Positions 5,640 to 51,764 of a stretch of DNA of 64,000 nucleotides are shown here, in pieces. Source of the DNA: Bacillus sp. CGMCC 1.16541 (GTDB taxonomy: Bacteria; Bacillota; Bacilli; Bacillales; Bacillaceae_H); contig NZ_QFRU01000011.1 in the NCBI RefSeq assembly GCF_003184905.1, forward strand, positions 1-64,000. The letters run 5' to 3'. The notes beneath the pieces are model-generated. The model was not told where the DNA came from and ran no database searches. It saw only the letters and a program-made list of their open reading frames with translations. Numbering within the stretch: position 1 is the first letter of the stretch; every line of letters begins with the position of its first letter. The position numbers and the translations under genes were made by a program.

Positions 5640-5990
5640 AAGCGCAGCGTCAAAAAATTACCCCTTTACTAAAGGGTAGAAAATGCATAAAAAATTGCAA
5701 CTAAAACGCTGAACAAGTAAACTTGCTCAATTTGCCACAGGTCCTGCTTTACCAAACTTACTACCACAGTAAACGTTCTAGACTACCTCGCAAAAGCGAC
5801 AGGCACGGGATGTGTAGTCAACTAACTCTTAGTTGCTACTCTGGGAAATGTGATGCCCATCTAACGGGAGAACACCGGCAGTTAGCCGGAGCCAAAGGCA
5901 AGACGGGATGCCTTCGGATAATTAGTTTGCCGTCTTTTATACAACACAGAGGATGCCTACCACCCAAATGAGGAGCGCTTCGCCACATAC
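5640..5990. other. GC-richer, hairpin-dense non-coding patch, possible structured RNA
   Basis: Base composition rises clearly above the AT-rich surroundings, with no credible reading frame. Self-complementary pairs follow one another: CCCCTTT/AAAGGG, GAACAAG/CTTGCTC, GACTAC/GTAGTC enclosing TCGC-AAAA-GCGA, AACTA/TAGTT, CCGGC/GCCGG, AAGGC/GCCTT and AAGACGG/CCGTCTT. Several interleave as pseudoknots would. This density suggests an RNA fold or a remnant of one. A guide-type RNA of an IS200/IS605 relative is possible, but I cannot recognise a family, and neither strand nor ends are certain. Confidence 0.35.
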
Positions 5991-29310: not shown

Positions 29311-29510
29311 TTACCCTATCTTGATTGAATTTAGATAACAGAACAAAGTGCTTCTTTCCCCTCACATGTACCCGCTACATGTGAGTTTTTTTATAATAGC
29401 CTGCATATACTGTCTCTACTCTCTTACCGTTTCCTTTCATTTTCCTGCACAAAGAGGATTGACGAATGATTGGATCCCTTATAGAATAGACCGCAATACT
29501 TTTTATTTTT

Positions 29511-29633
29511 CTCGTATAATCTTGGAAATAAGGTCCAAGAGTCTCTACCAAACTACCGTAAATAGTTGGACTACGAGAGTTGAACATTTTCATACCCTCA
29601 TTTTATCTTCAGGATGTTCTACTCTTTTTAGTC
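29511..29633 (+). promoter_or_regulatory. Purine riboswitch (guanine class) with terminator platform upstream of ade
   Basis: The aptamer 29511-29577 shows P1 CTCGTA/TACGAG, the J1/2 core TATAATC, the P2-L2-P2' segment ending AAGTCT-type sequence, J2/3 CTCTACC, L3 ACCGTAAA and J3/1 GGACTACG. The specificity base before TACGAG is C, the guanine/hypoxanthine class. Downstream, GAGTTGAACAT pairs with ATGTTCTACTC (one mismatch) and is followed by five T residues: an intrinsic terminator (about 29575-29633). Binding of purine should stabilise P1 and allow termination. Confidence 0.9.
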
Positions 29634-46543: not shown

Positions 46544-47644
46544 CTAGTTCTGATTCTCAAATGGCTGGTCCTGATAAAAATAATTTGGCGTTACAATCTC
46601 ATTTCGATACGACTTATGAAAAATGTGCGTCGTCGCGGGTGAAACAGGTGGGATGAGCCACGTCCAGTCACCTGTGACATCGCGGCCACTTTGTTGTTCA
46701 CGCTGTTCAAACAACTTAAATTGTTGAGCGGCTGTATGATGATCGACAATACTAACTCCTTTTTCTTTAAACGATTGTAAAACCGCAATGTTTAGCTCAA
46801 TCAGCGCTTTATCTTTCCATAACGTTGCATTTGAGCTCATATTCAGCCCCATCATGTCTGCAACTTTTGGCAGTAAATTATAACGATACTCATCTGCTAA
46901 ATTACGCGCGCCAATTTCCGTTTCCATGTACCATCCGTTAAACGGAGCCGCCACATAGTCGATGCCGCCAATTTCAAGACGCATATCTGAAATGATTGGC
47001 ACCCCATACCACTTAATACCAAGCTCATTAAACGCCGCAAGCTCTGGATGCTGAATCGGTACTTCTATCACCACGTCTTTTGGAATCTCATACCACTTTG
47101 GCTGTTGATTGTTCACTTGAATCACAAGCGGAAGCAAATCAAAATGAGTACCTTCTCCTTGCCAGCCAAGTTCCTCACATACTTTCGTAAACGCAAGTGA
47201 TGCAGGATCTCCTATTATGCCATATTCTGTTTCGTATCCAGCATAACGAAGCAATTGATGATTCCAGATTCGTACTTGATCTTGTTCGTTCACCTTTGGT
47301 TGAAACACCGTAATCGTTGGGCGAATCTTTCCGTTGTTTGTGGCATAGTCAATATGCTCCACTAACGCGTGAAAAATGGCTTTCTCATCTTGCAGTGACC
47401 GCGCATCGATAACCTGAAGCGACTGCCAAAACAAACGACCAATGCATTTATTACTATTTCGCCATGCTAACCGCGCCCCATGCTCAATCTCTTCAAACGT
47501 ATGCGTATATGTCCCATGTACGTTAATTTCTTCTTTTATATCAGCTAATCTTGCTTGAATTTGCTCACTCGTCTTTCCAAACTCTTCATAGCAAATGGTT
47601 ATAAAATGCTCTGCCTCTTCATAAAGCAGACGTTGTTCACTCAC
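46544..47644 (-). CDS. nos: Bacterial nitric oxide synthase oxygenase
   Basis: A 366-residue NOS oxygenase without reductase domain. The haem-thiolate C67 lies in [10 protein letters not shown], and the substrate/pterin regions [17 protein letters not shown] and [10 protein letters not shown] are intact. It makes NO from arginine via N-hydroxyarginine using cellular reductases. Start is a GTG with AGGAGG seven bases before it. It lies 2.7 kb from hmp; in B. subtilis nos is yflM, near yflJ. Confidence 0.95.
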
Positions 47645-49032: not shown

Positions 49033-49073
49033 CAAAAAGCGTATGCCCACAATCGTGAACATACGCTTTTTTT
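49033..49073. terminator. Bidirectional terminator
   Basis: AAAAAGCGTATG and CATACGCTTTTT pair around a 14-base loop between convergent genes. Confidence 0.9.
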
Positions 49074-49845
49074 AATTTACAGATAGTTGTAAAGACGGTT
49101 GCACAAGAAACCGATTAACAGCTTCCATTAAATTCGATAGATACTCGATTTCTACATCCATCTCAATTTGATTTAACGTCACAGCATGTTTAGGTGTTAA
49201 ACCTGAAAGATAAGGAGTTACACCCATCAGCTTAAAGTCAGCAATTAATTTAACAAACACCTTAATGCCTTCTTCGTCTAGCGACCCAATTGCTTGAAAG
49301 TCGATGATGACGCGCTCAACGTCTTCATTGTCTATACTATTTAACAACTTGTTGCGATTACCTTCAATGAGTTCTTTTGTTAAATCACCAAATAACGGAA
49401 TTAACACCGTATCCTTCGATAATAGAATCGCTGGACCTGACAGTAAAATAATTCGTTGTAGTGACTTTTCTAATTCCTCTTTTTTTAAAAGAAGAGCCAT
49501 GTCCGTTTCCTCTAACCGCTGTCTATGCTCATTTACCTTTTTCATTAAGTTCTCAATATGTTGATCTTGTTCAATACAAAGAATGTGTCCAATCTCTGCT
49601 ACCCAGTTCGTACATACTTTAAATAGGGCAAATGGTGACCGGTTTGTTTTCAAGACAAGCTCTGTTTCTAATTCTTCGCTTTGTAAAAGATGATTTTTAG
49701 CTTTTTCTTTACTTTCATCATCTACCAAATCTAAGAATTGACGTCCAATGTGAAATGTCTGTTTCGCACAATCTGAAACGTCTAGAATCTCAAAGGAAGA
49801 ATTGATCTTGAAATAGGGAAGAGGTAAATATTTGTTAGTCGACAA
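49072..49845 (-). CDS. PAS-like/STAS-domain protein (RsbR/YtvA-type architecture)
   Basis: A 257-residue protein: an N-terminal PAS-like sensory region (about 8-115), a coiled coil (HRQRLEETDMALLLKKEELEKSLQ), then a STAS domain (about 135-250) with ILLSKDTVLIPLFGDL, RVIIDFQAIGSLDEEG and LMGVTPYLSGLTPKHA. This is the layout of stressosome RsbR paralogues and YtvA. The start is TTG 49845, since AGGGAGG lies eight bases upstream; ATG 49866 has no ribosome site. It overlaps the B12-binding gene by eleven bases, so the pair is translationally coupled. Likely cytoplasmic signalling output; which sigma pathway is unknown. Confidence 0.82.
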   Translation of the reverse strand: MSTNKYLPLPYFKINSSFEILDVSDCAKQTFHIGRQFLDLVDDESKEKAKNHLLQSEELETELVLKTNRSPFALFKVCTNWVAEIGHILCIEQDQHIENLMKKVNEHRQRLEETDMALLLKKEELEKSLQRIILLSGPAILLSKDTVLIPLFGDLTKELIEGNRNKLLNSIDNEDVERVIIDFQAIGSLDEEGIKVFVKLIADFKLMGVTPYLSGLTPKHAVTLNQIEMDVEIEYLSNLMEAVNRFLVQPSLQLSVN

Positions 49846-50491
49846 CCTTCTTTCCTCCCTTGTCATAGCTCAACCAATTACTTAGTTCTGTTAGAGACTG
49901 AATAACTTTTGTTTGGTTTTGGCTATAATTTGAAAAATCATAATGAGAGACTAATCTACCACCAATGACTATCATTGGTTTATGGTCTAACTGCTCCAAT
50001 TCTATCACATATTCAGAAAGTTTGGTCGCATGATAGAGAATGCTAAACGATAAACCAATCACATCAGGCTTCCACTTTTTTGCCGCTGAAAGTGTATATT
50101 CAAGTGGAAGATTCGCTCCAAGAAGCTGTGTATCCCACCCATGCTCTTCAAACAAAAGCGAAACCATCTTGATTCCGAGGTAATGTTGTTCATCTTCAAG
50201 GCATAAAAACATGGCTTTTTTCACATGTTGTTTGTTTTGATCTTTCTGTTGAAGCATTTGATAACGAGAAAGCAAATAATCGCACGTCATCGTTGCTAAA
50301 TGCTCATCCGCCACTTTTATTTCATTCGTTTCCCACAGCTCACCAATATACGTCATGGATGGCGCAATCAGCTCCTGAAACAGCGTTACACTACTCATAC
50401 CTTTACGATGTTCTTCTAAAATTAGCTTCCACGCACGATCCTCATCTCCTTGTAAAAGAAGATTCGCTAGCTTTTCAACATGTAAATACAA
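49835..50491 (-). CDS. Cobalamin-binding (CarH/LitR-like) sensor domain protein without DNA-binding domain
   Basis: A 218-residue protein. Residues 1-85 form a four-helix cap with W53-x9-E63-H64, the motif of adenosylcobalamin photoreceptors such as CarH. Residues 92-200 form the B12 Rossmann domain with E101-x-H103-x-x-G106, S148 and GG177-178 at canonical spacing, so H103 should ligate cobalt. The MerR helix-turn-helix of CarH is absent. TTG start at 50491 with AGAGGTG upstream. It is translationally coupled to the PAS/STAS gene, which probably supplies the output. Confidence 0.85.
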   Translation of the reverse strand: MYLHVEKLANLLLQGDEDRAWKLILEEHRKGMSSVTLFQELIAPSMTYIGELWETNEIKVADEHLATMTCDYLLSRYQMLQQKDQNKQHVKKAMFLCLEDEQHYLGIKMVSLLFEEHGWDTQLLGANLPLEYTLSAAKKWKPDVIGLSFSILYHATKLSEYVIELEQLDHKPMIVIGGRLVSHYDFSNYSQNQTKVIQSLTELSNWLSYDKGGKKVVD

Positions 50492-50532: not shown

Positions 50533-50560
50533 CTAGAGCGAGCAAAACCACTCGCCCTAG
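50533..50560 (-). terminator. Dyad after the methionine gamma-lyase gene
   Basis: CTAGAGCGAG and CTCGCCCTAG pair imperfectly between the lyase stop and the B12 gene. The T-tract is poor, so read-through into the sensor operon is possible. Confidence 0.4.
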
Positions 50561-50570
50561 AAAGGATGTT

Positions 50571-51764
50571 TTATACCGTTTCGGCCATCTTAATTTGATA
50601 GAATGCTTGATTTAAATCTTCCCATATATCTTCCCACGCTTCAAGTCCAACAGATAACCGAATCAATTGATCCGTAATCCCCATCCGTTCTCGCACATCA
50701 GCAGGAATGACCGAATGAGTCATCGTCGCAGGGTGCTGAATCAACGTTTCTGCATCACCAAGGCTCACCGCAATTTTCACCATTCGTAAAGCATTTAGAA
50801 AATTCTGAGCATCTTGTTTTGTGCCGTTTATTTCAAATGAAATCAATCCGCCACCGTGTTTCATTTGTTTTCTCGTAATCTCATAATCAGCGTGTTCTTT
50901 ATCTCCTGGATAGTAAACAGCTTTTACTTTCGGATGTTCTTTTAACGCTTGATAAAGTTGCATCGCATTTGCGCAATGACGATCCATCCTGACAGGTAGC
51001 GTTTTAATTCCTCGCAACAACAACCACGCATCAAATGGAGAAATAATACCACCAATGTCTTTTTGAGTGGTCATCGCCACTTCATGCATGAGTGCAGCCG
51101 TTCCAACAGCTAAGCCTGCCACTACATCTCCATGACCACAAATGTATTTCGTTGCACTATGCACAACCACATCGCATCCTAATGTAAGTGGTTGCTGCAG
51201 ATAAGGAGAGGAAAAGGTATTATCGACGACGACTTTTATGTTGTACTCTTTTGCGACTCGCACCACCATCTCAAGGTCAATCATTTTCATGGTCGGATTA
51301 ATGGGCGTTTCGACATAAATACAGACCGTTTCAGGAAGAATGGCCTGGCGAATTTGTTCTTCATTTTGCATCGCACAAAATTCATGAGAAATGTTGTACT
51401 TTTCATTCATTAATTTTAATAATCCAAACGTACATCCATATAATCCAGGTGAACAAATTAAATGATCATTCGCTTTCGTTAAAGCAAGCAAAACCGCCGA
51501 TACAGCAGCCATCCCAGAGCTAAAGGCTAAGCCAACCTCTCCTCCTTCTAACGTCGCGATCGTCTCTTCTAATACCGTAACTGTTGGATTTCCAAGTCTT
51601 GAATAAATATACCCGTTCTCTTCCCCTGCAAACCGCTTTTCCCCTTGTTCTGCGGTATCAAATGTAAACGTAGACGTTTGAAAAATAGGAACCGTTAAAC
51701 TTCCCAAATGCTCCTTTGAATCATATCCCCCGTGAATGACTGATGTTTCAAACCGTTTTTTCAT
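50571..51764 (-). CDS. Methionine gamma-lyase (Cys/Met metabolism PLP enzyme)
   Basis: A 397-residue fold-type I PLP enzyme. The PLP lysine is K206 in HSATKYICGHGD, and the substrate loop PGLYGCTFGL has C111, the cysteine that marks methionine gamma-lyases among gamma-family enzymes. YSRLGNPT and SSGMAA bind phosphate. It splits methionine to methanethiol, 2-oxobutyrate and ammonia. Cystathionine lyase activity cannot be excluded. Leftward, 79 bases before the B12 sensor gene. Confidence 0.88.
   Translation of the reverse strand: MKKRFETSVIHGGYDSKEHLGSLTVPIFQTSTFTFDTAEQGEKRFAGEENGYIYSRLGNPTVTVLEETIATLEGGEVGLAFSSGMAAVSAVLLALTKANDHLICSPGLYGCTFGLLKLMNEKYNISHEFCAMQNEEQIRQAILPETVCIYVETPINPTMKMIDLEMVVRVAKEYNIKVVVDNTFSSPYLQQPLTLGCDVVVHSATKYICGHGDVVAGLAVGTAALMHEVAMTTQKDIGGIISPFDAWLLLRGIKTLPVRMDRHCANAMQLYQALKEHPKVKAVYYPGDKEHADYEITRKQMKHGGGLISFEINGTKQDAQNFLNALRMVKIAVSLGDAETLIQHPATMTHSVIPADVRERMGITDQLIRLSVGLEAWEDIWEDLNQAFYQIKMAETV

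Follow-up and report, generated by a model that had tools for sequence, protein, structure and literature searches.

To our knowledge, stressosomes integrate many signals and their sensor proteins have few known true ligands. For light in Bacillus, the clear case is YtvA with its flavin which, like RsbR co-antagonists, is made of a sensor domain, a helix and a STAS domain. CarH and LitR are MerR-family photoreceptors that use adenosylcobalamin (AdoCbl), and in photocobilins such as SasPcob and AbDPcob a B12 domain and a bilin-type globin are joined in one chain (PMC10979010, which like the other papers cited here by accession is quoted from excerpts). BBAG-2 and related globins bind biliverdin and are encoded beside a separate B12 protein (PMC10151467). 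Finally, in the AerR-CrtJ and AppA-PpsR couples of purple bacteria, a B12-fold protein regulates a PAS protein by contact on the helix that follows the PAS domain, and the AppA-PpsR crystal structure shows the B12-fold SCHIC domain placed on the long helix that leads on from the N-terminal PAS domain (PMC9144470). Here, we have analysed a stretch of 64,000 nucleotides from Bacillus sp. CGMCC 1.16541 (contig NZ_QFRU01000011.1, positions 1 to 64,000, hereafter the window), which encodes a B12 subunit and, overlapping it, a PAS-STAS protein. Every part of this module is of a known kind, and the combination of a separate B12 subunit with a PAS-STAS protein is new in the literature searched. A sequence-only reading of this DNA had not recognised such a pairing as described, and none was indeed found in the open full-text literature, nor was an exchange of outputs attached to a single PAS adaptor, nor a photocobilin of Bacillales split into subunits, with the limit that Schneider et al. 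(2022), on photoglobins, may touch on some of it. The main text of PMC10151467 contains none of the words Firmicutes, Bacillus and STAS.

The B12 subunit (49835..50491) is a protein of 218 amino acids from a TTG start, and the PAS-STAS gene (49072..49845) encodes 257 amino acids from a TTG or 264 from an ATG at 49866. Both open reading frames (ORFs) lie on the minus strand where the sequence-only reading had placed them, and the eleven-base overlap that it described (49835..49845) holds if translation of the PAS-STAS gene begins with the TTG at 49845, eight bases downstream of a GGGAGG ribosome-binding site (49854-49859), and becomes 32 bases with the ATG. Pfam detects in the B12 subunit a helical cap (B12-binding_2, residues 6-71, 1.3e-14; 50279..50476, minus strand), which holds G50xxW53 and E63H64, and a cobalamin-binding Rossmann domain (B12-binding, residues 92-182, 3.5e-15; 49946..50218, minus strand), in which His103 is the presumed lower ligand. 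The two motifs seen by the sequence-only reading are both there: the B12 signature [ED]xHxxG-x41-Sx[TS]-x22-27-GG spans residues 101-178 and the Wx9EH cap motif is exact (W53-x9-E63H64). Each is found in only one of the 59 window ORFs of at least 100 amino acids, and 20,000 permutations of the protein produced the signature never and the cap motif 300 times. With its cap and Rossmann domain, Wx9EH motif, lower-ligand His and Ser and GG signature, the B12 subunit is thus like CarH and LitR, and CarH is its best NCBIfam model (5.3e-12), but with 45.6 bits against a cut-off of 400. Unlike CarH and LitR, its output is a separate PAS protein, it has Glu at the bis-His position and, as had been noticed, it lacks the MerR DNA-binding domain, none being found among Pfam matches up to an E-value of 1.

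The pocket of the B12 subunit appears, from its aligned residues, to be of the light-sensing type. In an alignment of 148 sequences (147 relatives, near-copies included, and the window protein), W53, E63, E101, H103 and G106 are invariant, position 64 is His in 145 and Tyr in three, and GxxxP retains its G in 139 sequences and its P in 141. According to SignatureFinder, light-responsive cobalamin domains are marked by GxxW, EH, GxxH and GxxxP (PMC11796333, excerpts), and three of these four elements are exact in the window protein, GxxH reading DxxH. The source genome has eight loci with a B12-binding domain, and GxxW-x9-E[HY] occurs in three of them: the window protein, its paralogue and a CarH-like protein (L007, contig 4 near 269 kb) that has MerR and both B12 domains, and a cap that reads GDMWEKGQITSAHEH. 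The best NCBIfam model for this CarH-like protein is again CarH (147.6 bits, under the cut-off of 400), and it too has Glu, not His, at the bis-His position. The B12 subunit gene is broken into two frames in three related loci (L016, L080 and L150), by decay or assembly error.

The PAS-STAS protein has the RsbR/YtvA design, with a PAS and a STAS domain around a coiled coil, that had been read from its sequence, which is now supported by a Pfam match to STAS (6.9e-10), an AlphaFold2 model (mean pLDDT 82, pTM 0.49; the globin discussed below was also modelled) and Foldseek, whose top match is full-length YtvA (1.7e-11). The model consists of a PAS fold (residues 1-93; 49567..49845), a long signalling helix (residues 95-135; 49441..49563) and a STAS domain (residues 144-234; 49144..49416), all encoded on the minus strand, the Pfam match of the PAS domain (PAS_9) being weak (0.045) and under the Pfam cut-off. 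The linker helix and STAS are of the RsbR/YtvA type, the closest STAS relatives being YtvA and stressosome proteins. Unlike YtvA, this protein has no LOV cysteine motif, and its input would come from a separate subunit. In fact, none of the 11 STAS loci of the genome has an ORF with NCR[FY]LQ, and YtvA has no match in this genome at 1e-50. The likeness to AerR-CrtJ and AppA-PpsR is one of design, with the difference that the output of these couples is a DNA-binding regulator; the AppA-PpsR complex is among the Foldseek hits of the model, at rank 30 and with weak similarity. Conservation of the helix was rejected as proof of a docking site: L111, L118 and E126 are conserved in STAS proteins and in the kinases described below alike, R110 and T114 in the STAS class only, so that helix conservation may serve the STAS domain. 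The PAS domains of both classes also have P8, S24, F31, D42, S45, K48, E62 and L74 in common for the most part, which fits a common job, be it with a ligand or with the B12 partner. The PAS-STAS gene of one related locus (L187) is broken into two overlapping frames.

A search with the whole PAS-STAS protein revealed a second match in the same genome, on contig 24, which aligned with the PAS half only, and we use RCV as a working name for this PAS domain common to STAS and kinase proteins. The contig 24 RCV is the N-terminal domain of a 370-amino acid histidine kinase whose gene likewise overlaps an upstream B12 gene, in a second module (about 51.6-54.2 kb; L160 2171-4624; minus strand) made of, in order, B12 subunit, PAS-histidine kinase, ABM protein and bilin-type globin. 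Within the order, RCV was detected in 135 of 299 genomes, against three of 348 genomes sampled phylum-wide (the source genome, one of the same order and one of the same class), and a wide spread beyond the order was therefore rejected. Plasmid spread was rejected as well: eight plasmid records, among them Priestia plasmids, match parts of the PAS-STAS protein and none covers 80% of it. The B12-binding domain itself was matched in 12 of 14 control genomes, Bacillus subtilis being outside those 12.

The search of genomes for the adjacent pair, which the sequence-only reading had suggested, shows that the two proteins are a real pair. Among 100 regions hand-picked from the matches and scanned with profiles built from these loci (99 after removal of L176, which has no PAS ORF), 62 of 65 RCV-STAS genes have a same-strand B12 gene immediately upstream, as do 11 of 12 RCV-kinase genes and all 14 genes of a third class (about 165-220 amino acids), making 87 of the 91 loci of the three output classes, the commonest overlap being 14 bases. 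For lone RCV domains of less than 160 amino acids, this is the case in just two of eight; lone PAS copies (139-145 amino acids) with no nearby B12 gene are found in one genus (L152, L154, L172, L173 and L177). One of the three RCV-STAS exceptions (L086) comes from a genome in which the B12 gene is on another contig (L276), adjoining an ABM-globin pair. Seen from the other side, an RCV gene adjoins 78 of 80 B12 genes in a named set (the best 80 of 348 relatives, several of them strains of one species). On a maximum-likelihood tree of 86 B12 subunits, the output classes need three changes, which is the minimum (shuffled mean 24.5), and the kinase-class subunits are on one side of a branch with a support of 89/89. 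This sorting suggests that B12 subunit and PAS partner travel together and that the output has been switched only a few times. Some third-class loci (L171, L121, L123, L127, L131 and L147), with a B12 gene and a PAS protein of ~206-220 amino acids, have the gene of a very large histidine kinase in convergent orientation or close by, and the one giant kinase examined, that of L171, is a CheB-CheR-PAS-kinase by Pfam. That the C-terminal part of third-class proteins is a degenerate kinase dimerisation domain was considered and rejected, Pfam giving nothing convincing for three proteins.

The pair in the window represents the minimal version of a larger module, in which an ABM protein and a bilin-type globin are often present as well. 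These two genes stand beside the kinase module in the source genome and, in about two thirds of the named relatives (53 of 80), in one operon in the order ABM, bilin-type globin, B12 protein and PAS-STAS. The globin (a set of 88 sequences, near-copies included) resembles phycocyanin and the bilin half of photocobilins, and a homologous globin accompanies the B12 protein across the family, the window locus being without it. In its larger form, the module is like photocobilins in having a B12 domain and a bilin-type globin of similar fold (PMC10979010, excerpts) but, unlike them, is made of separate genes with a PAS transmitter and an ABM gene of its own; B12 and globin are separate ORFs in the loci scanned, and the window B12 subunit has no globin domain. 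BBAG-2-type clusters likewise place a globin, in their case a biliverdin-binding one, beside a separate B12 protein and differ in having a PcyA-like reductase or a heme oxygenase, some being from Myxococcales (PMC10151467, excerpts). It has been shown that a photocobilin regulates a separate enzyme domain through contact, and SasPcob has been predicted, from interaction networks, to contact STAS and SpoIIE-type proteins (PMC10979010, excerpts). In two genomes (loci L273 and L274), the ABM-globin pair is found away from the B12 pair, and in L273 a LOV-STAS (ytvA-like) gene precedes it by ~2.5 kb.

The source genome has a locus (L260) with the layout rsbR, rsbS, rsbT, rsbU, rsbV, rsbW, sigB and rsbX, in which SigB and RsbW are above NCBIfam cut-offs and the remaining names come from gene order and weaker matches. 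In the sample of 299 genomes, an RsbS-like match (E < 1e-40) was found in 97 of 97 genomes with an RCV-STAS-sized gene versus 132 of 202 others, and in two of seven genomes with the kinase form only, a comparison that is blind to phylogeny and assigns class by frame length, and is thus supportive rather than decisive. The RCV-STAS-sized class comprises open frames of 245-310 amino acids, hand-entered among the matches listed (a truncated 199-amino acid frame in G098 being excluded and a 250-amino acid frame with a stop in G302 retained), STAS itself being checked in 65 loci. In at least 17 genomes from two families, the module was seen, by eye, to lie upstream of rsbS, on the same strand and at most about 8 kb away; in three of these regions inspected by ORFs, rhomboid, acpS, alanine racemase and MazEF-like genes intervene, and Pfam confirmed these types in L267 or L268. 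A Priestia aryabhattai/megaterium-like genome (G015, the likeness coming from gene order common with L208) has four PAS copies, and one pair in it is oriented divergently to two STAS genes, a LOV-STAS (ytvA) gene and an rsbR-like one, an arrangement with which coordinates in two further genomes of the genus agree. The kinship with stressosome proteins proposed by the sequence-only reading is thus borne out by the YtvA-like linker and STAS, the universal presence of RsbS in the RCV-STAS genomes and linkage to sigB or ytvA in some lineages. That the module replaces YtvA is not supported, given that genomes like G008, G012 and G015 carry both (read by eye).

Taken with the signatures and predicted folds, the gene pairing and RsbS co-occurrence that we observe make it probable, with considerable room for doubt, that these genes specify a multi-subunit cobalamin photoreceptor, akin to a split photocobilin, that acts via a PAS adaptor on the SigB stressosome. 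The B12 subunit would bind AdoCbl between the helical cap and the Rossmann domain, the cobalt having His103 underneath and the adenosyl group being covered by Trp53, Glu63 and His64. On exposure to green light or shorter wavelengths, the Co-C bond would break and the cap would rearrange, a change that would be relayed by protein contact to the PAS domain and following helix of the PAS-STAS protein. This helix would feed a STAS domain seated in the stressosome with RsbR and RsbS, and light would then alter release of the RsbT kinase and hence, in one direction or the other, SigB activity. Where the ABM and globin genes occur, the globin subunit would bind a bilin and widen the colour range, as in a photocobilin made of separate chains. 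A more ambitious version, possible but distinctly tentative, is a two-chromophore photoreceptor assembled from separate subunits (AdoCbl protein and bilin globin, the ABM protein making or loading the bilin), in which one interchangeable PAS adaptor would serve not only the SigB stressosome but also a histidine kinase and, as gene neighbourhood suggests, CheB-CheR-type giant kinases, three outputs in all.

Several points weigh against a cobalamin photoreceptor acting on SigB. The first Gly of GxxH is Asp in the window protein and Gly is found in just 52 of the 148 aligned subunits, so that a strict pattern search would overlook this protein. The bis-His residue of Thermus CarH is replaced by Glu in 129 and by Gln in 16, with His in none; other photoresponsive proteins are reported to have Arg, Gln or Tyr at this position (PMC11796333, excerpts). 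Neither a globin nor an ABM gene is beside the module within the window, and the globin was undetected in 21 of the 135 PAS genomes. Of 85 aligned ABM sequences, 84 carry Ser and one has a gap at what we take to be the position of the catalytic Asn of IsdG, which makes bilin production doubtful. On the output side, the STAS domain lacks the RsbR phospho-threonines T171 and T205, with Lys and Glu instead in the window protein and Glu as the commonest residue at both positions among relatives. Moreover, module and sigB locus are on different contigs in the source genome, which shows no sigB or ytvA linkage; RsbS is also present in 30 of 31 RCV genomes that lack both a STAS-sized and a kinase-sized gene (mostly third class) and is therefore not specific to the STAS form; and all genome counts ignore phylogeny.

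Some of these points would suit another signal for the same pair and the same stressosome output, namely cobalamin supply or redox state (AdoCbl bound or not) instead of light, which we nevertheless hold to be unlikely. AdoCbl binding in the dark makes CarH tetramers, according to published abstracts, the bis-His residue is absent, and the genomes in which no globin was detected suggest that the B12 pair can exist alone. However, the residues that would cap the adenosyl group are conserved, and the strong association with a bilin-type globin is hard to explain for a vitamin sensor. Control by a cobalamin riboswitch was rejected because Rfam finds none in five related loci or in the window (where its only matches are to a purine riboswitch and EGFOA RNA), which speaks neither way strongly. 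Adenosyltransferase (PF01923), which was tried as a marker of AdoCbl supply, is found in 296 of the 299 genomes and discriminates nothing.

It is less likely still, we think, that the B12 regulator acts on its PAS partner as AerR does on CrtJ and that the STAS output bypasses SigB, leading to another partner-switching pathway or serving as a decoy. The lack of phosphorylatable threonines, the missing sigB linkage in the source genome, the further kinds of STAS protein in that genome and an RsbS that is equally common in third-class-only genomes would all be accommodated. YtvA, however, is not known to have these threonines either. It is also, with stressosome proteins, the nearest relative of this STAS domain, and the 97 of 97 genomes with an RsbS-like protein again argue for a stressosome output. 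Last, a corrinoid protein of a methyltransferase system adjoining an unrelated STAS gene, suggested by weak NCBIfam matches to the corrinoid proteins MtgC and MtaC (5.4e-10 and 1.4e-8), was already disfavoured and is highly improbable given that CarH is the best model (nothing reaching its cut-off), that no methyltransferase was found among five neighbours scanned, that pairing recurs across three output classes and that GxxW-x9-EH is common in this genome only to the paralogue and the CarH-like protein.

The surroundings of the pair may be described briefly. A gene for a Cys/Met metabolism pyridoxal phosphate (PLP) enzyme lies upstream of the module (50571-51764, minus strand), a similar gene being downstream of the module in another locus (L011, 135-1322, minus strand), and between the PLP enzyme and B12 genes an inverted repeat, CTAGGGCGAG/CTCGCTCTAG (50533-50560, minus strand), was spotted by eye and is perhaps a terminator. 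The second gene downstream of the module encodes a bacterial nitric oxide synthase oxygenase (Pfam 8.4e-176; 46544-47644, minus strand). The purine riboswitch match is at 29492-29593 (plus strand) and the EGFOA small RNA match at 5700-5850 (minus strand).

In conclusion, stressosome sensing would gain a new class of chromophore from a cobalamin subunit, which is often accompanied by a bilin globin, and the sensor would prove to be a part that can be separate and exchanged. Optogenetics could also make use of such a modular B12 switch, available in nature for kinase or partner-switching outputs, and the question is approachable in tractable species such as the Priestia aryabhattai/megaterium-like organism with its four PAS copies. 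Were the two-chromophore version true, many Bacillales would inform their general stress response about colour, from the near-UV to the red, by a route that could not be seen in Bacillus subtilis. The module may in any case be a means, so far little noticed, by which bacteria convert light into a stress alarm.
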